From NCBI RefSeq assembly GCF_037126435.1, contig NZ_CP147020.1, forward strand, positions 3,390,001 through 3,454,000: a stretch of DNA of 64,000 nt, given 5' to 3'. The stretch is from Bernardetia sp. ABR2-2B. Lineage in GTDB: Bacteria > Bacteroidota > Bacteroidia > Cytophagales > Bernardetiaceae. Shown here piece after piece: positions 13,658 through 50,371 of this stretch; the stretch's first letter is position 1, and each line of letters begins with the position of its first letter. Both the position numbers and the translations under genes were made by a program. The notes under the pieces were generated by a model. The model had not been told where the DNA came from, did no database searches, and saw only the letters and a program-made list of their open reading frames with translations.

Positions 13658-14584
13658 TTGAAAGAATTAATTAATTTTCTTTATCGGTTTCGTAATTTTT
13701 TGCTTTTTCTTTTACTAGAAGCAGTTTGCTTTTGGTTGATTATAAATCATAATACGTATCAGCGAATTGTGGTGCTTACTTCGGCTAGTTCTGTTGTGGG
13801 AACAAGTTTGAACATGCAAAATTGGATAGCTACTCGTTGGAACTTAAAAGATGAAAATGAACGACTTTTAGAAGAAAATGCAAAACTTCACTCTCTTTTG
13901 GCGACACAAATACGCAAAAATCAAGTTGAGGATACGCTTGCATTTGATAATTTGTATCTCAATTACTCTGAAAAACAAAAGGATAGTTTAAGATTACTTT
14001 CTCTGTCTGATAAGTTTATAAATCTAGATTCTCTTCAGCTTTTATCTGTTTCTGAATATCAACTCATTCCTGCCAAAGTAATTAAGCATTCTTATTTATT
14101 AGAAAGAAATTTCTTGACTATCAATAAAGGAAGTAAACAAGGAATAAAAAAAGGAATGGGAGTAATTACAGGCTCTGGTATCGTAGGAAAAATAGAAGCA
14201 GTTTCTAGTAATTATGCAACAATAAGAAGTATTCTACATGTCGATTATCAAGTCGCTTCACAGATAAAGCGCAACGGAATAAATGCAACTACAAAATGGG
14301 ACGGAATAGATTATAGAAATTCAAATTTATTATATACTTCAGCAAAAGATATAAAAGTAGGTGATACAGTAGTTACAAGTATAGAAAATAACTTTTATCC
14401 AAAAGAGTTTTTGATTGGCTATGTAGAAGAAGTCAATTTTACTTCTGCAAAAGGAAATTTTAATGAAGTAAATATACGTTTGGCTACTGATTTTACGACA
14501 CTTTCATATGTTTATATCATCGAAAATCAATACAGACCAGAAATAGACTCTTTAGAACAAGTTACACTAGAAAAACTGAAATAG
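13658..14584 (+). CDS. mreC: Rod-shape determining protein MreC
   Basis: A 308-residue inner-membrane protein that links MreB filaments to the periplasmic wall-synthesis enzymes. One membrane helix sits near residues 10-30 (FLLFLLLEAVCFWLIIN), a coiled coil at about 62-80, and the periplasmic MreC beta domains from about 135 on (INKGSKQGIKKGMGVITGSG is the signature). No ATG precedes the conserved N-terminus; the TTG at 13658 gives the expected length. The stop is 4 bp before mreD, so the two are co-translated. Confidence 0.93.
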   Translation: MKELINFLYRFRNFLLFLLLEAVCFWLIINHNTYQRIVVLTSASSVVGTSLNMQNWIATRWNLKDENERLLEENAKLHSLLATQIRKNQVEDTLAFDNLYLNYSEKQKDSLRLLSLSDKFINLDSLQLLSVSEYQLIPAKVIKHSYLLERNFLTINKGSKQGIKKGMGVITGSGIVGKIEAVSSNYATIRSILHVDYQVASQIKRNGINATTKWDGIDYRNSNLLYTSAKDIKVGDTVVTSIENNFYPKEFLIGYVEEVNFTSAKGNFNEVNIRLATDFTTLSYVYIIENQYRPEIDSLEQVTLEKLK

Positions 14585-14588
14585 GAAA

Positions 14589-15098
14589 ATGAATCCAAGT
14601 ACAATTACTCACTTTATAAGTTTTTTTATTTATTGGCTTCTTCAAGTCTTGCTTTTCAGAAATGTAGCACTTTTTGATACAGCTTTTTGTTTTGTCTATG
14701 TAGGTTTTCTTCTGTTGCTTCCTCTTGAAATAAGCCTTACAACACTTTTGCTTTTGGGATTTGGAATGGGATTAGCCATAGATATTTTTTATGATACGGC
14801 TGGTGTACACGCTGCAACAATGGTCATTATTGCCTTTATTCGCCCTTCTCTTATTCAATTCATACGACCAAATGGAGGTTATGATGGTGTAGAAAATCCT
14901 ACACTTTCAAAACTTGGTTTTAACTGGTTTGTTATGTATGCAGGGATTACCTTATTTCTTCATCATGCTATTTTATTTTTAATACAGGGAAGCAATTTTT
15001 CATTATGGCTGTCTAACTTTTTTGTAATAGTAGCTAGTACACTTTTGAGCTTGTTTGTACTTGTAATTGGACAGTATTTATTTTACAGAAAGAAATAA
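14589..15098 (+). CDS. mreD: Rod-shape determining protein MreD
   Basis: A 169-residue, very hydrophobic protein with five or six membrane helices, the expected size and place for MreD. It follows mreC after 4 bp. Family sequence conservation is low, so the call relies on position, size, topology and the motif GMGLAIDIFYDTAGVHA (about 59-75), which fits the MreD GLXXD region. In many Bacteroidota mrdA (PBP2) and rodA follow mreD; here a convergent hldD follows instead. Confidence 0.88.
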   Translation: MNPSTITHFISFFIYWLLQVLLFRNVALFDTAFCFVYVGFLLLLPLEISLTTLLLLGFGMGLAIDIFYDTAGVHAATMVIIAFIRPSLIQFIRPNGGYDGVENPTLSKLGFNWFVMYAGITLFLHHAILFLIQGSNFSLWLSNFFVIVASTLLSLFVLVIGQYLFYRKK

Positions 15099-15109
15099 AA
15101 TAAATATTA

Positions 15110-15146
15110 TTTCAAGTCAAGTTAAGTATCGATACTTGACTTGAAA
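15110..15146. terminator. Stem-loop between convergent mreD and hldD
   Basis: A perfect 13-bp stem (tttcaagtcaagt / acttgacttgaaa) with an 11-base loop. It lacks strong T-runs, but its position between two convergent stops fits a shared terminator. Confidence 0.6.
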
Positions 15147-15161
15147 CAGTAAATAAAAACT

Positions 15162-16127
15162 TTAATAATATTTATTTTCTATCAAATAATTTTTGACATA
15201 ATCTTCTACACCTTCTTCTAGGGTATGGAATTTTTTAGTATAACCAGCCTTTTTTAGTTTTTCCATGTCAGCCTGTGTGTAGTATTGATATTTATCACGA
15301 ATATCGATAGGCGTATCCATAAAATCTATTTCAGGAGTTTTGTCAAGAGCATAAAACGTATTCTTTGCTAAATCTAAGAAAGTACGTGCTGTTCCACTTC
15401 CAAGATTATAAATAGCTGATTTAGGCTGTTCGTTCATCAAAAACAAACATACTTCTATCAAATCTTTTACATATACAAAATCACGAAGCTGTTCGCCATC
15501 TTTAAAATTAGGGTTATGAGAACGAAAAAGTTTCATCTTTCCTGTTTTCAAAATCTGATGATACGTATGAAAAATAACAGAAGCCATACGTCCTTTATGA
15601 AATTCATTAGGTCCATAAACATTAAAAAACTTCAAACCAGCCCAAAAGGGAGGTGTTTTTTCTTGTTCCAATACCCAAATATCAAATTCTTGTTTTGATT
15701 GTCCGTAAGGATTAAGAGGTTTTAGAAGTGGAATTCGGCTTTCTTCATCTTTATAGCCGTGCTCTCCTGCCCCATAGGTAGCAGCCGAAGAGGCATAAAC
15801 TAATGGAATAGAATACTCAACACACATTTTCCAAATTTTTTTACTATAACCCACATTTAGGTGTTCGAAAATCTCATAATCAAATTCGGTAGTATCAGTA
15901 CGTGCGCCAATGTGATATATAAATTCGACATCAATATAATTTTTTTTGAGCCAATCAAAAAAATCTTCACGTTCGACACGTTCACTAATTTGCTTTTCTG
16001 CTAAATTTTTATTTTTTTCGATGAAGGAAAAATCATCTACGGCAATAATATGATTATGACCAGCTTCTAAAAGACGGCTAATCAATGCACTGCCAATAAA
16101 ACCTGCTGCACCTGTTACTACAATCAT
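15162..16127 (-). CDS. hldD: ADP-L-glycero-D-manno-heptose 6-epimerase
   Basis: This NADP-dependent epimerase makes ADP-L-glycero-heptose for the LPS core. At 321 residues it is an extended SDR with the GAAGFIG cofactor loop (6-12), Tyr141 and Lys145 of the YxxxK active site, and two signatures typical of HldD: GARTDTTE (74-81) and NVYGPNEFHKGRMASV. The ATG at 16127 starts the first beta strand directly. The other heptose genes (hldE, gmhA, gmhB) are not in the window. Confidence 0.9.
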   Translation of the reverse strand: MIVVTGAAGFIGSALISRLLEAGHNHIIAVDDFSFIEKNKNLAEKQISERVEREDFFDWLKKNYIDVEFIYHIGARTDTTEFDYEIFEHLNVGYSKKIWKMCVEYSIPLVYASSAATYGAGEHGYKDEESRIPLLKPLNPYGQSKQEFDIWVLEQEKTPPFWAGLKFFNVYGPNEFHKGRMASVIFHTYHQILKTGKMKLFRSHNPNFKDGEQLRDFVYVKDLIEVCLFLMNEQPKSAIYNLGSGTARTFLDLAKNTFYALDKTPEIDFMDTPIDIRDKYQYYTQADMEKLKKAGYTKKFHTLEEGVEDYVKNYLIENKYY

Positions 16128-42014: not shown

Positions 42015-43103
42015 TTACTCCATTGACAAAACTTTAATTTTTTGATCAAATTTAGTTTCACTAGTCATTGGATTATTGAGTATTTTTTTAATTTCTATTA
42101 ATCCATATCTGAAAAAAGAGTATTCATTATATCCATTTGAACAGACTCTTATTTTTGTTTTTTTATGTTTCCATTCTCCTACTTTGTAACACCAAACAAA
42201 GGCAATGGAACACAAAGCAATTAATTTAGCTATTTTATTTGGTTCTGTTAATTTTGTATTTTCTAAGTTAAAACCTTGTGATTTTAGTGCTTTAAACAAC
42301 GTTTCGATTTCCCAACGTTGTTTATAAATTTCAAAAATATTATCCAATAAAACAGGTGATGCTAAATAAATATATCCTTTTTGTGTTCGACTTACAGATA
42401 AATATACCTCTGCTTCATTGACTACAAATGTTCCATCTAGTTGATAGGTTTCTGAAATCGAAAGCCCTCTACACCATGCTACAATAGACTTTGTTTTCCC
42501 TTTTCTAGTAGCTTTAAAGTTAGATTTTATACGCATTACAAAATCAAATTTTTTTGTAGCTAAATAGAAAAACCATTTTTTACCTATAAACTCTCTATCT
42601 GCTACAAGAGCAGTAATAGATAAATTAGGAAATTGATTTAAGAAATCTTCTATCAAATCAATTCGTTGTTGAGTAGCTGAATTTCCTGTCCTCGAAAGTA
42701 CAGACCAACAAAGAGGAATAGATACCCCTTTATGAGCTGCTGAGAGAAGCAAAATATTAATATGCTCTTTTCCAACTTTCCAATTCGTTCTATCCAAACA
42801 CAGTACGATATTTTCCCATTGTTCAATGCCTTCTAAGGAAATAATCAAATTAGTAATTGCTTGAAAATCAAGCTCATAATAATTTAAAAAGCGTTCTATA
42901 CGACGTAAAGAAGAACTGTATTCTACATTCCTTTCAAACGCAGTTGCAATTTGAATTAAACCTCCTAGACCTACCTTTATAACAGCTATTACAAAAAGAC
43001 CTATAAATTGAACTCGGGCTAAATGAAACCCTTTTAAATGAGAAGATAAAACACTAACTAATTTTGTAACTTTACCACTAGAAGCATACTTTGCTTTCGC
43101 CAT
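42015..43103 (-). CDS. IS4-family transposase
   Basis: A 362-residue DDE transposase that cuts and joins the IS ends. Catalytic regions seen are LDRTNW (first Asp), ADREF (second Asp) and the YREK motif YKQRWEIETLFKALKSQG (third, Glu). The length is normal for the family and there is no frameshift, so it is probably active. An open frame extends to 43145, but the ATG at 43103 sits exactly in a hairpin (43099-43152), as in other IS elements where read-through mRNA hides the start. No partner genes. Confidence 0.93.
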   Translation of the reverse strand: MAKAKYASSGKVTKLVSVLSSHLKGFHLARVQFIGLFVIAVIKVGLGGLIQIATAFERNVEYSSSLRRIERFLNYYELDFQAITNLIISLEGIEQWENIVLCLDRTNWKVGKEHINILLLSAAHKGVSIPLCWSVLSRTGNSATQQRIDLIEDFLNQFPNLSITALVADREFIGKKWFFYLATKKFDFVMRIKSNFKATRKGKTKSIVAWCRGLSISETYQLDGTFVVNEAEVYLSVSRTQKGYIYLASPVLLDNIFEIYKQRWEIETLFKALKSQGFNLENTKLTEPNKIAKLIALCSIAFVWCYKVGEWKHKKTKIRVCSNGYNEYSFFRYGLIEIKKILNNPMTSETKFDQKIKVLSME

Positions 43104-43152
43104 AATTGAGAAAATTTTGTGAGAAAAATTTTGTGAGAAACTCAATTATGGC
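43099..43152 (-). promoter_or_regulatory. Start-codon hairpin of the transposase
   Basis: A perfect 12-bp stem, gccataattgag (43099-43110) with ctcaattatggc (43141-43152), includes the transposase ATG. The loop is a tandem repeat of aaaattttgtgaga (43111-43124 and 43125-43138). Transcripts entering from outside would fold and block translation; a promoter inside the loop would not make the full stem. Confidence 0.65.
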
Positions 43153-44191: not shown

Positions 44192-44220
44192 CCTTATCTT
44201 TTTATATTAAAAAATAAACG

Positions 44221-44327
44221 TTATCAGAGTTTGTTTTACGTAGTTTAGGCATCCTGCCTGAACACAAAAACAGCTTTTATTCTCAATGGTCAGTCTGGAA
44301 GACTGACATACAAAAATAACCGTGATA
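44221..44327. repeat. Palindrome-ended repeat element, copy 2
   Basis: Its left end ttatcagagtttgtttt and right end aaaaataaccgtgataa pair at 13 of 17 positions. The right end is nearly identical to that of the element at 31109-31242, including the following ggttta. The core has the hairpins gtcagtctggaagactgac and aggcatcctgcct. Confidence 0.65.
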
Positions 44328-44362
44328 AGGTTTAATACACAACGATAACTTAAAATGTAAAT

Positions 44363-47300
44363 CTACTCCACCAAAGGCAATTCAATAAAAAAGGTAGTTC
44401 CGAAATACGGTTCTGTTTCAAACCAAATTCTTCCTCCTGCATGTTCTATTCCACGCTTGGCAACTGAAAGACCAATTCCAGAACCTGTTGATTTAGTCGT
44501 AAAGTTAGGAATGAAGAGTTTTTTTGCTGTTTCTTCATCAATTCCTTTTCCATTATCACGAATATAAATAACTATCGTTTTTGGCGATTTTTGATTTGTT
44601 CTTTCTAAGACAACATTAATATGTGGGTCTTTTTCTTGTACGGCTTGTATGCCATTCAGAATAAGATTTGTAAGGATTCTTCCCATAAGTTTCGAATCTC
44701 CATTTACAAAAAACTCTCCTTGGTCAAGAATTGCATCCAGACGAACACTTCCGTCATTCTTATATAAAATCAAAGTTTCTTGAAGCACCATCGAAACATC
44801 AAAACGCTCTGTTTTTGGAATTGGCATCTTTGCAAAAGCAGAAAATGAAGTTGCAATATCACTCAATGTATCTACCTGTGTAAGCAAACTTTTGATAGAA
44901 CGCTCGGCAGGAGATTCTTCGTTTGCCAAAACTCGTTGCAAATGTTGCAATGTTAGTTTCATTGGTGTAAGAGGATTTTTTATTTCGTGAGCTACTTGTT
45001 TTGCCATTTCCCTCCACGCTGATTCCTTTTCACTAGCAGCAAGTGCAGCCCTACTTTCTTCCAACTTGACAAGCATTTTATTATATTCTCCTACCAAAAG
45101 GCCAATTTCATCGTCAGATTTATAATCTAACGGTTTGTTGTCTCCACTTAGCGTAATTCTTTTCAGACGAGAAGTAACAAGACTCAACGGTTTTGTCAAA
45201 TCCCGAGAAGCGAAAAAGGAAAGCACCACCAAGAGCAAAAATATTCCTGTAAAAACGTTTAGTATCGTCGAAACAACTTCCAAAATTTGTTCATCAGCAT
45301 AACGTTGGGATTCGAAAAAGGGAACATCTACTACTCCCACAATTTCGCCAGTTGCAGGAGATTTTACGACTACATATGCCGAATTATAATTTAGCCTTCC
45401 GATAGATTCACTAAGTATTGTCTTGCTTTGTTTTTGTTCTATCAAACGTGCCATCGCCTTAGGGTTTATAAGAGAAGACACTAATCCATTATCATAAATA
45501 GTTGGTTGAGAAGATGCCAAAAGTACACCATCTCTATCAAAAACATTGATTTCTGTTTGAGTCAGACGAGCAATTTCTTGAAGAGATTCTAATAATTCGT
45601 CTTTTGTAATGTCCTTATAAACTACATAATCACTAAGTTTTGTAGAGAAATTTTGAGCAACATTTTCAGCTTTTTGAAAGTAAGTTTCGATAGTTTGATT
45701 CTTATTTTCCGAATTCAAAATACTTACAATCAAGATACTCAAGAGAATTGTTGGTAAGAAAAAGGCTAAATTAAGATAAAGCTGAATCCTTCCAGTTAGG
45801 TTAAAAGCAAAAGGCTGTTGTCTAAAATAAAGACGATAAACTGCCAAAAGCAAAAGCATCATCAAGACAATACAAATAAATTGCATTGAAAAATTAGTCA
45901 AGACGGACTTTAAGGGATAATTTACCGAAGAAATAATAACTGATTTGTCGTTGCTTCCTTTTATAAAAAAGTGTTTGTAAGATGAGGTGGAAAATGTAGT
46001 TACAGAATCAAAATTGCTTAAAAATTCTTTAGAATAGACAAAATTCCCTTGTGAATAAACAGGTGTTGCATTCTCAAAAATTGAATAACTCCAAGCATTT
46101 CTTCCTCCCCAATGGTTATAATTTGAATAAGGATTATCTGATAAAAGGTTGGGATACACACTATTCGAAACTATTTTTTTGAGTTGTAATTCTATTACAA
46201 TTTTGCCAATCTTGACACCACTTCTACTAATTTCACTAAAGGCAAAATAGCGTTTTGTGTTTGTGGATAGGTCGTGAACCAAAAAAATCTCTTCATATTC
46301 TGTTGAATAGATAGGTTGTGCATACCTAGAATACATCTCATCAAAAGTCATTGTATTGTCATAAGGCATTCCATTTCCATTAAATAAATGAACTTTTATA
46401 TCGTATTTATCAAAATAATAATCCAAATAAAACTTCCTTATTTTTCGTGAGATAATATCCTTCGTAGTAAAAGAAGTCATTAATCTATTCTTAATGATTG
46501 GGTCAAATGGGAGTGATTCGACAACATCATTCAATAAAAACTCTCCTTGCAAATCATTTTCTAATAAAAGCTGGTCAGCAAAGTTTTCCTTTGCTGTTCT
46601 CTCTCTCGTTTGCTCAAAACAATAGATAATATAACTACTCATAATCGAAGTAGTGATTGCTCCCAAGAATATATAAATAAATATTTGATAGGTAAAAGAA
46701 CGCTCCGAACGAGGCAATTCTACAAAAATAACTATCAATATATAAACTGTATGGATAAGTGCAATCCAAGCATCGGAAAGATTTGCACGAATACTAAAAG
46801 CATAAATGACACTAACAACCCAACCTACCAAAACACCTAAAGCGACCAATAAAATCAATTTTCTACCTTCTACATGTAGCCATTCTATAAAACGAACTAA
46901 GATATGAACAAGTAAAAAATAAGTGGTAGCCGTCAAAATTGCTATAAAAAGAGCTATTATTTTGAGGAGTGAAAAATCTAATTCTCTAGTAAAATCTAAA
47001 GAAATTTGGGGAGAGTGAATATATAAATTTCGAATATTTAGAAAGTGATAAAAAGCAATGGCAAAAGAAAGTGCAATCGCTATCACAATACCAAATTGTT
47101 TGCGTTTTCGGCTGCCAATGCTTCTCATATGAGAGAGTTCGCTAAAATGCACAAACAAAAAACTACTTATGATAAAAATACAAATCACATTCAGAAATAA
47201 ATCGCCAAGCGAAGGAGCAACCCAAGAAGAAGCATAATAACGAGCATTGAAAAGAATGGTAGGAAATATACTGTTAGGTAAATTCAGAAAAAGCATAAAA

Positions 47301-48058
47301 AAACGAATCCCTAAAAAGGTAGCTACCAAAACAAAAAAAGCATACCAAACTTGCCCTTCTTTCAAAAAATGAAGCATCGAAACTCTTGCCTGTAAGAACA
47401 CAAAAACACACGCAATAAGCATAAAAAAGAGTACAGCATAGTTTTGAGAGGACTGCCAACTATAATCTAATGGAAAAACAAGCGCAAAGAGCAAATTACT
47501 TCCCGTTCCATAAACCCGATACGAAGATCCTTCTGGATTGAGTTGAAGGCTAATATCCGAAGTAGCAAAAAGCTTTGGATTGACTCCTGAAGTCAGAAAT
47601 TGATTATAAATTTTGTATTCAGAGGATAAAGGAATCAAAACGACTCCTGTCATATTATCGTATTTGGTAACGATGAGCTTTTGTTTTATCAAAAACAGAC
47701 CTTTTGGTGTTTCAAGTGTATATTCTGAATAATTATTTTTGAGTTGGTCATACGATAATAAGTAGGTATTATCTGTCCAAAAAAGAAGTTCACTATTTCT
47801 AAAAATATAAATGGGATATTTCCCTGTATTAGAAGTAATGAGTGAGAAGTCTAGCTTTTTATAATTCTGAATGACAGCTTCCTCTAGTTCTGTGAGTTCT
47901 TTTTCTGCTACTTCTAGTTCTTTATCTACTTTTTTTCGAACTTCTTGTGTGTATTCATTATAATCCTTCGTATTTACTAAAAAATATCGAAAGCCAAGCC
48001 CTGCCAATAGAGAAGCCAAGGCAATGAATAGAAAAGAATACGAAACAGATTTTGACAT
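44363..48058 (-). CDS. Large membrane sensor histidine kinase (NtrY-like)
   Basis: A 1231-residue sensor kinase. The N-terminus has one helix and a periplasmic loop, then a block of about ten membrane helices (residues 190-480). A large extracytoplasmic part follows (about 500-735), then a helix pair, a second sensor loop and a HAMP domain (about 955-1005). The HisKA domain carries the phospho-His in VAHEIKNPLTPMKLTLQHLQ (about 1025). The HATPase domain has N (NLILNGIQAV), G1 (DNGKGID) and G2 (GSGIGLSVAK) boxes. The HEIKNPLTPMKL box is that of NtrY/NtrB-type kinases, which act on sigma-54 activators, yet no response regulator is adjacent. The ATG at 48058 is chosen over an upstream TTG. Confidence 0.9.
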   Translation of the reverse strand: MSKSVSYSFLFIALASLLAGLGFRYFLVNTKDYNEYTQEVRKKVDKELEVAEKELTELEEAVIQNYKKLDFSLITSNTGKYPIYIFRNSELLFWTDNTYLLSYDQLKNNYSEYTLETPKGLFLIKQKLIVTKYDNMTGVVLIPLSSEYKIYNQFLTSGVNPKLFATSDISLQLNPEGSSYRVYGTGSNLLFALVFPLDYSWQSSQNYAVLFFMLIACVFVFLQARVSMLHFLKEGQVWYAFFVLVATFLGIRFFMLFLNLPNSIFPTILFNARYYASSWVAPSLGDLFLNVICIFIISSFLFVHFSELSHMRSIGSRKRKQFGIVIAIALSFAIAFYHFLNIRNLYIHSPQISLDFTRELDFSLLKIIALFIAILTATTYFLLVHILVRFIEWLHVEGRKLILLVALGVLVGWVVSVIYAFSIRANLSDAWIALIHTVYILIVIFVELPRSERSFTYQIFIYIFLGAITTSIMSSYIIYCFEQTRERTAKENFADQLLLENDLQGEFLLNDVVESLPFDPIIKNRLMTSFTTKDIISRKIRKFYLDYYFDKYDIKVHLFNGNGMPYDNTMTFDEMYSRYAQPIYSTEYEEIFLVHDLSTNTKRYFAFSEISRSGVKIGKIVIELQLKKIVSNSVYPNLLSDNPYSNYNHWGGRNAWSYSIFENATPVYSQGNFVYSKEFLSNFDSVTTFSTSSYKHFFIKGSNDKSVIISSVNYPLKSVLTNFSMQFICIVLMMLLLLAVYRLYFRQQPFAFNLTGRIQLYLNLAFFLPTILLSILIVSILNSENKNQTIETYFQKAENVAQNFSTKLSDYVVYKDITKDELLESLQEIARLTQTEINVFDRDGVLLASSQPTIYDNGLVSSLINPKAMARLIEQKQSKTILSESIGRLNYNSAYVVVKSPATGEIVGVVDVPFFESQRYADEQILEVVSTILNVFTGIFLLLVVLSFFASRDLTKPLSLVTSRLKRITLSGDNKPLDYKSDDEIGLLVGEYNKMLVKLEESRAALAASEKESAWREMAKQVAHEIKNPLTPMKLTLQHLQRVLANEESPAERSIKSLLTQVDTLSDIATSFSAFAKMPIPKTERFDVSMVLQETLILYKNDGSVRLDAILDQGEFFVNGDSKLMGRILTNLILNGIQAVQEKDPHINVVLERTNQKSPKTIVIYIRDNGKGIDEETAKKLFIPNFTTKSTGSGIGLSVAKRGIEHAGGRIWFETEPYFGTTFFIELPLVE

Positions 48059-48201
48059 TTTTATAAATAATGAAAACCAAGACAAAAATTAATATTAATT
48101 TAATAATGTTCTCAAATTTTGAACCTTAAATTTTCATTTCAAAAAATGTATTCAAATTCTTGTGTTCTTGCTCTTCATTCTCTTTGGTCTAAATGAGTTT
48201 G

Positions 48202-48275
48202 TAGCGATAGAGAGATTCGAACTCTCAAAACTTAGTTTCTAAAACTAATACGTATGCCAGTTCCGTCATATCGCT
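48202..48275 (-). tRNA. tRNA-Leu (anticodon UAG), atypical
   Basis: 74 nt. The acceptor arms AGCGATA/TATCGCT pair. The anticodon stem TTAGT/ACTAA holds the loop TTTAGAA with anticodon UAG (reads CUA, Leu). The T arm GAGAG/CTCTC has loop TTCGAAT. The variable loop is only about 5 nt (GTTTT), whereas bacterial tRNA-Leu normally has a long arm. Discriminator A is followed by CAA. Confidence 0.8.
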
Positions 48276-48280
48276 AGTTG

Positions 48281-48354
48281 TATAGTGGGTAGGACTCGAA
48301 CCTACATTTTCTTGCATCCAAAGCAAGATATTTAGCCAATTAATATACCACTAT
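48281..48354 (-). tRNA. tRNA-Pro (UGG)
   Basis: 74 nt. Acceptor ATAGTGG/CCACTAT; anticodon stem CTTGC/GCAAG with loop TTTGGAT; T arm GTAGG/CCTAC. Discriminator A is followed by CAA. Five nt separate it from the Leu gene. Confidence 0.88.
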
Positions 48355-48360
48355 ATATTG

Positions 48361-48434
48361 TGGAAAAGATTGGATTCGAACCAATGTCCAACAGATTTTC
48401 AGTCTGTCACTCTACCTGCCTGAGTTACTCTTCC
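48361..48434 (-). tRNA. tRNA-Phe (GAA)
   Basis: 74 nt. Acceptor GGAAGAG/CTTTTCC; anticodon stem ACAGA/TCTGT with loop CTGAAAA. Discriminator A is followed by CAA. Confidence 0.92.
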
Positions 48435-48442
48435 ATTTTTTG

Positions 48443-48513
48443 CACGTCCTAGAGGAATCGAACCTCTGTTTTCAGTTTTGGAGACTGATACATTACCACT
48501 ATGATAAGAACGT
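48443..48513 (-). tRNA. tRNA-Trp (CCA)
   Basis: 71 nt. Acceptor ACGTTCT/AGGACGT; anticodon stem TCAGT/ACTGA with loop CTCCAAA; T arm GAGG with TTCGATT. Discriminator G is followed by CAA. The D arm is short and AT-rich. Confidence 0.9.
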
Positions 48514-48518
48514 AGTTG

Positions 48519-48590
48519 TTACCTCGTCAAGATTCGAACTTGAAAAATCAGACTCAAAATCTGATGTGTTACCGATTACACCACAAGGCA
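48519..48590 (-). tRNA. tRNA-Gln (UUG)
   Basis: 72 nt. Acceptor TGCCTTG/CGAGGTA (with G-U pairs); anticodon stem TCAGA/TCTGA with loop TTTTGAG. Discriminator A is followed by CAA. Confidence 0.9.
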
Positions 48591-48606
48591 ATATTATTAT
48601 TTTTTG

Positions 48607-48690
48607 TGGGAACGCTAGGATTCGAACCTAGAAAGTTTTACAACTCCAGATTTACAGTCTGGTGCAGATTACCGTATCTACAAAGTTCCC
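48607..48690 (-). tRNA. tRNA-Tyr (GUA)
   Basis: 84 nt. Acceptor GGGAACT with CGTTCCC; anticodon stem CCAGA/TCTGG with loop CTGTAAA. The long class-II variable arm AGTTGTAAAACTTT is present, as expected for Tyr. Discriminator A is followed by CAA. Confidence 0.94.
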
Positions 48691-48697
48691 TTTTTTG

Positions 48698-48770
48698 TAC
48701 TCCATAAGAGATTCGAACTCTTTTTATGTCTTAGAAAGAGACATGTGATAGCCAATTACACTAATGGAGC
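48698..48770 (-). tRNA. tRNA-Glu (UUC)
   Basis: 73 nt. Acceptor GCTCCAT/ATGGAGT (first pair G-U); anticodon stem TGTCT/AGACA with loop CTTTCTA. Discriminator A is followed by CAA. The sequence is quite unlike the GC-richer Glu tRNA usual in the phylum. Confidence 0.9.
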
Positions 48771-48776
48771 AAGTTG

Positions 48777-48850
48777 TAAGACTAATAGGATTCGAACCTA
48801 TGACCTTCTGTGCATCAGACAGACGCTCTAACCGACTGAGCTATAATCTT
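48777..48850 (-). tRNA. tRNA-Ile (GAU)
   Basis: 74 nt. Acceptor AAGATTA/TAGTCTT; D arm GCTCAGTCGGTTAGAGC; anticodon stem TCTGT/ACAGA with loop CTGATGC; T arm ATAGG/CCTAT. Discriminator A is followed by CAA. It is the first gene of the array in the direction of transcription. Confidence 0.93.
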
Positions 48851-48903: not shown

Positions 48904-48948
48904 AAAAAATAAAAAACACCTTACTAGATAGATTTCTAATAAGGTGTT
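48904..48948 (-). terminator. Terminator of the serine hydrolase gene, upstream of the tRNA array
   Basis: A 9-bp stem, aacacctta/taaggtgtt, continued by taga/tcta, with a minus-strand T-rich run (48904-48916). It isolates the array from the gene upstream. Confidence 0.8.
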
Positions 48949-48978
48949 GATACGTACTACTCAATAGTTTTCAAATAA

Positions 48979-49067
48979 ATAGGTCAGTCCTAAAAGGCAG
49001 ACCGTTTACTGAAAATAAAAATAAGAAAGATTGACTACAAACGGTCTGCTCTACGAGACTGACCTAT
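48979..49067. repeat. Nested palindromic element
   Basis: Outer arms ataggtcagtc (48979-48989) and gactgacctat (49057-49067), and inner arms gcagaccgttt (48997-49007) and aaacggtctgc (49039-49049), pair perfectly with 7-base internal loops. The ggtcagtc unit also occurs in the element at 44221-44327. Confidence 0.7.
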
Positions 49068-49141
49068 ATCATATGCTAATTAAGTACAAAGCTAAAGGTA
49101 TAGTTTTAATGACATTATGCTAAAAATTCAGTTTGTGTATT

Positions 49142-50371
49142 TTACTCTACTTCTAGTGTGTTCCATATTCCCCAAAAAACATCATTGCTATTTTCTTTTT
49201 TGGAATCTGTATTTGCAATAAAAATTCTACCTGCCTTTTTTTCTGAATCAAAATACATAAGTGCATTTGTACCTGGGTCGCCTCCTGTATGTCCAATGGC
49301 ATTGTAAGCGAGTTCTTTATCTAAAAACAAACCAACATTAAAGTTTTCTTTTCCTTCAAAGTTTTCTTCTTTGAGTTGAGACTTAAAAAACTCTGCGTAA
49401 TTATCTTTGTTTAGAAGTGTTCCGTTTCCTTCATATCCTTTTATTAAATCTATCAAGAATTTACTCAAATCGCTACTTGAAGTAATCAGTCCTCCATCTG
49501 GATAAGAAAGAATAGTATAATAAGGCAATTCTTTATCATCAAAATAAAGTTTGGAATAAGCAGAACTATCCACCTCTTCAAAGAGCCAACTGGTAGCACT
49601 CATTTCTAAAGGCTCAAAAACATGTTCTTTCGTAAACTCATGAAAAGGTTTTTTGGCAACTGATTCTATTACTAACGCACAAAGAGCTGCACCGACATTA
49701 CTATACTCATAAATCTCGTTTGGTTTTCGGTTTGCATAAGTGGCTGTATCATAAAATTCATTTCCTTCTACTAAAATCTTTTCTAAGTATTCAGATAAAG
49801 GCATCCAATTTTTGGATGGATTTTGATAATACAACTCATATTTTTCTGTCAAACTCTCATCAATAACGACATCATTTCTATTGATATAATCCGTTTTCAT
49901 ATACATTTCTGTATCAATAATAGAACTTGTATGTGTAGCCAAATGACGAGCAGTTATTTTTTCATTTGGAAAGTTTGGATTAATAACTTCAAAAGGTAAA
50001 TAATCATTAATTGGCGCATCTAAATCAAGCAAATTCATTTCGTGCGCCTTCAAAAGAGAGATTCCGATAAATACCTTAGAAACAGAAGCTATATTAATGA
50101 TAGTGTTTTCTGTATATTTTTTCTGATTTTTCATATCTGCATAGCCAAAACCACGATTGTAAAGAACTCCAGAGGTATCTACCACAGTTGCTGAAAAACC
50201 ATTAAAAACACCTAAATTATGAAGGCTATCTAGTTCTTTGTTTATATTAGGGCGTAGAGAAGTTTTCTTTGATGGAGTTTTTTCTTGTTCTGTTTCTTTT
50301 GTTTGATTTGGTTTGTCTTGGCAAGAAGAAAGTAGAATAATTAGTGAGAATATAAAAGGTAGTAGTTTCAA
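49142..50371 (-). CDS. Beta-lactamase-like serine hydrolase lipoprotein
   Basis: A 409-residue class-C-beta-lactamase-like protein (DD-peptidase/esterase clan). A signal peptide with lipobox LLSSC (Cys17) is followed by the catalytic SVSK (Ser96, Lys99), the second motif YSN in YEYSNVGAAL, and HTGG in IGHTGGDPG. The fold is shared by penicillin-binding proteins, esterases and peptidases; nothing here decides the substrate. It is transcribed alone and divergent from the HAD gene. Confidence 0.88.
   Translation of the reverse strand: MKLLPFIFSLIILLSSCQDKPNQTKETEQEKTPSKKTSLRPNINKELDSLHNLGVFNGFSATVVDTSGVLYNRGFGYADMKNQKKYTENTIINIASVSKVFIGISLLKAHEMNLLDLDAPINDYLPFEVINPNFPNEKITARHLATHTSSIIDTEMYMKTDYINRNDVVIDESLTEKYELYYQNPSKNWMPLSEYLEKILVEGNEFYDTATYANRKPNEIYEYSNVGAALCALVIESVAKKPFHEFTKEHVFEPLEMSATSWLFEEVDSSAYSKLYFDDKELPYYTILSYPDGGLITSSSDLSKFLIDLIKGYEGNGTLLNKDNYAEFFKSQLKEENFEGKENFNVGLFLDKELAYNAIGHTGGDPGTNALMYFDSEKKAGRIFIANTDSKKENSNDVFWGIWNTLEVE

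Follow-up and report, generated by a model that had tools for sequence, protein, structure and literature searches.

Sets of tRNA genes carried by phages are thought to sustain protein synthesis when tRNAs are destroyed. Dense clusters of such genes have been described as arrays in mycobacteria (PMC5966550) and in Cellulophaga and other phages (PMC6409571), and section 6 of the former paper defines a tRNA array unit by at least 20 tRNAs at a density of at least 2 tRNAs per kb. For an array on giant linear plasmids of Mycobacterium avium, a putative antidefence role has been proposed (PMC12803027), and the trn operon of Anabaena PCC 7120 comprises 26 plasmid-borne genes with a known repressor (PMC10272220). 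Among the open-licence papers listed in literature searches on tRNA arrays and phage tRNAs, none dealt with arrays of Bernardetia. The array considered here lies in a 64,000-nt stretch of the chromosome of Bernardetia sp. ABR2-2B (the window). Its density of 8 tRNAs in 649 bp is above that of an array unit, and its gene number, like the 14 genes of a second array in the same genome (array 2), is below 20 (PMC5966550). Dense one-strand sets found on phages, prophages and chromosomes are common to Bernardetia and the clusters covered in the relevant sections of PMC5966550 and PMC6409571; unlike those clusters, Bernardetia has a stray eight-gene copy, with no phage genes found beside it, and prophage arrays collinear with it occur both in this genome and elsewhere in the genus. 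As in phage tRNAs that evade anticodon nucleases, in the parts of PMC10264068 and PMC11555353 that deal with them, most of the genes are redundant, some anticodon loops are changed (4 of 7 comparable) and codon use offers no explanation. Unlike in that set, three of the seven comparable window-array loops are unchanged, and the Glu U37 and Ile G37 of the array are rare or absent in the viral sample described below. The M. avium array is likewise made of tRNAs that differ from chromosomal isoacceptors, but it is plasmid-borne, as outlined in PMC12803027, and the Bernardetia array is prophage-derived. Like the trn operon, as presented in PMC10272220, the window array is a spare tRNA operon beside housekeeping genes, with 8 genes on a chromosome instead of 26 on a plasmid. 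The window array is probably, if by no means certainly, a stray chromosomal copy of a temperate-phage tRNA set, that is, a phage countermeasure to tRNA depletion that is now stranded in the chromosome.

The window array occupies positions 48202-48850 on the minus strand. ARAGORN, and Infernal with Rfam, each call the same eight genes and none elsewhere in the window, with Infernal scores of 40.5-73.2 bits (gathering score 29). In descending coordinates, they are tRNA-Ile(GAT) with G37 (48777..48850, 73.2 bits), tRNA-Glu(TTC) with U37 (48698..48770, 55.1 bits), tRNA-Tyr(GTA) with a long variable arm (48607..48690, 40.5 bits), tRNA-Gln(TTG) with A37 where host copies have G37 (48519..48590, 60.6 bits), tRNA-Trp(CCA) (48443..48513, 62.7 bits), tRNA-Phe(GAA) (48361..48434, 68.5 bits), tRNA-Pro(TGG) with A37 where the host copy has G37 (48281..48354, 60.8 bits), and tRNA-Leu(TAG), which has no long variable arm and carries A37 where the host copy has G37 (48202..48275, 59.4 bits). 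Spacers computed from the Infernal ends are, in ascending coordinates, 5, 6, 8, 5, 16, 7 and 6 nt. The initial annotation, made from the letters of the window, had described eight complete one-strand tRNA genes with these isotypes, ends and spacers, and the two programs agree with it. It had also called several of the genes (Trp, Glu, Gln and Pro) AT-rich and unlike the usual tRNAs of the phylum, which is borne out for the array by a G+C content of 0.36-0.44 and by an identity of only 0.49-0.70 to host genes with the same anticodon (seven comparable). ARAGORN called 42 tRNAs outside the arrays in the loci analysed; their G+C content is at least 0.45 in 41 cases and 0.39 in the remaining one.

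The genome that holds the window (G000; 5.38 Mb, 4 contigs) contains at least 66 tRNA matches, made up of the 8 of the window array, 14 of array 2, 2 of a tRNA-like RNA cluster and 42 others; the array-free relative G001 has at least 42, one of them weak, a number similar to the others of G000. These counts are lower bounds: of the candidates raised with the tRNA family, 150 of 460 were scored for G000 and 150 of 485 for G001, and the G000 list lacks at least one tRNA called by ARAGORN, a Leu-GAG at 2977910. Ordinary genes of G000 duplicate seven of the eight window-array anticodons, and array tRNAs are more alike among arrays (0.59-0.92 identity) than they are to host isoacceptors. Of the genomes compared, 4 of 7 in the genus and none of 4 others in the family gave matches that extend over several tRNAs of the array. 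A scan of 291 genomes of the order, with two candidates scored per genome, listed matches to several kinds of array tRNA only in G000, G003, G004 and G005; the other rows listed were short and mostly Gln or initiator-like Met. It is concluded from this complement and distribution that the window array is best regarded as accessory, not housekeeping, with seven of eight anticodons duplicated and Ile-GAT set aside. The accessory array proposed in the initial annotation thus stands on divergent duplicates and patchy occurrence, and for seven anticodons the genes are neither the only ones in the genome nor lone homologues in all relatives. That the array is a housekeeping tRNA operon has next to no chance of being correct. 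In its favour, no other non-array Ile-GAT gene was seen in G000; against it are the separate ordinary genes for the other seven anticodons, the three genus genomes that gave no multi-tRNA match, and the array-free G001, where the Ile-GAT pattern was negative as well. A pattern search of G000, G001 and G004 gave no non-array Ile-GAT, and because the pattern was negative in array-free G001 too, the missing gene seems to reflect a limit of the search. Ile-GAT genes usually reside in rRNA operons. A 16S rRNA search of G000 gave no match and was positive in 9 of 14 control genomes, so rRNA operons may be hidden from the search.

Collinear counterparts of the window array are found among phage genes. 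Array 2 of G000 comprises 14 tRNAs called by ARAGORN on the minus strand (C1:3879450-3880689), in the order Met (initiator-like), Ile, Glu, Tyr, Gln, Asn, Phe, Met (83 nt), Gly, Pro, Ser, Ser, Leu(TAG) and Leu(TAA). Seven isotypes are common to array 2 and the window array, and their order is identical. The gap between Gln and Asn holds a Trp remnant, with an alignment score of 21 to the Trp of G005 against at most 12 in 500 shuffles. Array 2 directly follows an endolysin gene (Amidase_3), in surroundings where PHROGs matches identify an integrase, a DNA methyltransferase, a terminase, an amidoligase, the endolysin, a portal protein, a head maturation protease and a major head protein. In G005, 20 of 22 ORFs near the array match the array-2 prophage, as do 5 of 12 ORFs on contig C62 of G003; both arrays are collinear with the window array and each follows an endolysin gene. 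The terminase of the array-2 prophage has matches in 98 phage records, all below 60% identity (24.5-32.1% for the 15 listed), and neither the portal protein nor a Leu pattern had a match in viral contigs. The DNA of the window array itself matches 12 phage records over 55-75 nt, each time inside one tRNA, and 9 plasmid records, with five of the matches inside one tRNA and a match of 115-117 nt (~72%) to the end of Tyr plus Gln in four mycobacterial plasmids. Because collinear arrays sit in prophages of G000 and two relatives, an origin can be assigned: judged by these syntenic prophages of the same genome and genus, the window array is of prophage origin. Two CAT-anticodon tRNAs of array 2 carry T73 (G000:C1:3879978-3880060 and 3880615-3880689, L031), one with a long variable arm and the other initiator-like.

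In tRNA-dependent lysogeny, a phage carries a tRNA of the same isotype as the host tRNA broken by its integration (PMC10865867, in the part that treats this mechanism). In the array-2 prophage, the integrase gene comes immediately behind tRNA-Arg(CCG), as such a replacement would have it, but this tRNA is called complete and neither array of G000 contains an Arg tRNA. Moreover, no repeat of the tRNA-Arg end of 14 nt or longer was found in the joined 60-kb stretch holding the prophage, where the attachment site is an inferred one. The idea that the array makes up for a tRNA broken in this way was rejected on the complete tRNA-Arg(CCG) and the arrays without Arg, and is considered extremely unlikely.

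The window copy is placed differently from array 2, since phage genes were found around array 2 and none around the window copy in the 40 of 50 ORFs scanned and by tblastn. It is flanked on one side by a histidine-kinase-like gene (44363..48085, minus strand; HATPase_c and HisKA in Pfam) and on the other by a beta-lactamase family gene (49142..50371, minus strand; PF00144). In G004, these two genes are neighbours and no array lies between them, with a gap between the matched flank segments of ~276 nt against ~1,022 in the window. The matches to the two flanks are far apart or on different contigs in G001, G002, G005 and G006, and the empty-site comparison is that with G004; that there is a single clean one counts against a stray copy derived from a prophage. 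The initial annotation had noted that no integrase lies in the window, and Pfam searches agree: of the 50 listed window ORFs of at least 100 aa, 40 were scanned and contained no integrase or phage domain, the sole recombination-type find being a DDE transposase (42015-43145). Nor did the ORFs of the 60-kb prophage stretch match the window by tblastn at 1e-3. The DDE transposase gene has at least 12 near-identical copies (98-100%) elsewhere in the genome. Two dispersed repeats of ~125-140 bp, each with many similar genome copies, lie at 44199-44337 and 48955-49081; the latter, which has inverted arms, adjoins the array from outside, between it and the next gene. A putative terminator-like hairpin upstream of the array (48915..48948, minus strand) was identified by consensus match and alignment.

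Further stray arrays occur in G003 and G004, at a site other than that in the window; their longer matching segments are 88-94% identical to the window array. The one in G004 lies between tsaD and a gene with a heavy-metal domain, and the one in G003 between the heavy-metal-domain gene and a phage-integrase-family gene. Their Tyr and Phe genes are called by neither ARAGORN nor Infernal and contain T-loop inserts of ~21 nt, at G004:C1:2251457-2251478 and 2251803-2251824 (L081) and at G003:C8:203351-203372 and 203698-203719 (L084); the array of G003 also has no Glu. The insert is identical in the T loops of both tRNA genes, and its exact pattern matched only these four places in five genomes. 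Beside the stray array on G003:C8 lie two phage-integrase-family genes (L084:11053-12216 and 14036-15466), the first ~80 nt past the last tRNA. Because these genes adjoin the G003 copy, the strays may have travelled with other elements, which again counts against derivation from a prophage. A search of the 20-kb stretch around the G003 array for a repeat of the Leu 3' end was negative. All three stray arrays share the terminator-like hairpin, near the end of clear similarity. Such an arrangement, with similar strays at two unrelated sites in the genus and a similar hairpin upstream of each, would suit a small cassette that is mobile in its own right and passes from one chromosomal site to another independently of phage. 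Yet no recombinase was found in or beside the window copy in the ORFs scanned and by tblastn, and a permissive alignment with the G005 prophage continues somewhat past the array start, so that the unit is not sharply bounded; a cassette of this kind is judged highly unlikely.

Codon frequencies allow a judgement on whether array tRNAs serve codons that are used more heavily in the phage than in its host. Frequencies from 42 ORFs of the window and from 60 of the prophage stretch, some of which may be host ORFs, correlate at 0.97. Per-tRNA codon ratios are 0.87-1.10 for array tRNAs against 0.89-1.52 for tRNAs outside arrays, and the codons read by the array show no general enrichment in the prophage stretch. 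A few of them are more frequent there (per 1000, GAG rises from 16.0 to 23.2, TTC from 8.5 to 11.6 and AGC from 5.2 to 7.1), which speaks for codon compensation and against a countermeasure to tRNA depletion. Compensation was nevertheless rejected on the high correlation and the missing general enrichment, and is regarded as distinctly unlikely.

The anticodon loops of the window array differ from those of host isoacceptors at positions 32, 37 or 38 in Glu, Gln, Pro and Leu (4 of 7), and are identical to them in Tyr, Trp and Phe. As a rule, A37 with t6A is found in tRNA-Ile, and m1G37 in tRNA-Pro and tRNA-Leu. Across six arrays compared, U37 is present in Glu (4/4), G37 in Ile (3/6), and A37 in Pro (5/5) and Leu(TAG) (4/5). 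A Pro pattern matched 68 of 148 genomes of the phylum and found G37 in 81 of 82 matches, the single A37 being that of the G000 prophage array; the pattern misses the Pro of the window array itself. A viral sample of 237 stretches, with 1,868 distinct tRNAs among the matches listed, was picked by Pro- and Ile-type patterns and is not random. Among the matches listed in it, U37 occurs in 0 of 65 Glu-TTC and G37 in 1 of 109 Ile-GAT, A37 is present in 19 of 133 Pro-TGG and 33 of 67 Leu-TAG, and 26 of the 67 Leu-TAG are short. In such a pattern-picked sample, a short Leu with A37 appears to be a common phage type, and U37 in Glu and G37 in Ile appear rare or absent.

The source of the window copy would be the tRNA array beside the endolysin gene in temperate phages of Bernardetia; a phage, or recombination with a phage, would have brought it in, and the remainder would have gone or never have come. 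In the phage, array tRNAs, once made and charged, would replace host tRNAs cut or depleted during infection, and their changed anticodon loops would make them poor nuclease targets; the window copy would then amount to a redundant set of spares. Such a rescue role is favoured by the altered loops and by the lack of support for codon compensation, as far as gene sequences can indicate one. Points against a countermeasure are the Tyr, Trp and Phe loops, equal to those of the host, the decay of the G003 and G004 strays (interrupted Tyr and Phe, and no Glu in G003), and the absence of a PrrC-type domain (PF13166), the one nuclease domain searched for, from the matches in G000. A more specific proposal is that the phage set serves as a chromosomal spare kit, whose unusual bases at position 37 (U37 for Glu, G37 for Ile, A37 for both Pro and Leu) would let it escape the usual modifications and the nucleases that read this site, such that translation continues when host tRNAs are cut or unmodified. 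This would be rather unlikely, and the position-37 changes provide a concrete biochemical prediction.

An inert relic of a lost prophage or of recombination, of no benefit and intact only because it is young, is a possibility of real weight, if well short of an even chance. Its redundancy with host genes, its patchy occurrence across the genus and the decaying strays of G003 and G004 would all fit a relic, as would the search upstream of the window array, restricted to sigma-70-type sites, in which no consensus promoter stood out. Against this, each of the eight genes in the window is scored as a complete tRNA, and where it differs from other copies the stems are maintained. In stem comparisons between the window array and the other copies, 65 both-side and 19 one-side changes keep the pair and 4 give a mismatch, counts that refer to comparisons and not to independent events, with changes that may date from life on phages. 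These comparisons show the predicted stems to be preserved by compensating changes. In the preferred reading, that of a stranded phage tRNA set, one small genus contains the same array in phage-borne form, as an intact stray and as decaying strays, together with array-free relatives. Two questions can thereby be addressed in Bernardetia, namely what makes temperate phages carry sets of tRNA genes and whether such sets are retained in bacteria that have lost the phage.

Other tRNA-like features are present in G000. A cluster of tRNA-like RNAs at G000:C1:4796259-4797155 (L117:3260-4420) has an insert in place of the anticodon arm and repeats the motif GGTCAA...TTACTTC...GATTACC. It is located upstream of a gene for a 798-aa protein that matches the MXAN_6230/SCO0854 RING family at 139.6 bits, below the cut-off of 600. 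A weak match to YrlA (Y RNA-like) suggests that the cluster may consist of Y RNA-like tRNA mimics. A combined pattern for the interrupted cluster gave no match, and conservation of parts of the cluster extends to further Bernardetia genomes. Near Leu-CAG, at G000:C1:2943508-2943581 (L042:708-782), lies a tRNA-like gene of 52.6 bits whose anticodon loop has eight bases (ARAGORN 'tRNA-???', ttcc), and G001 has a 51-bit match in a similar position.
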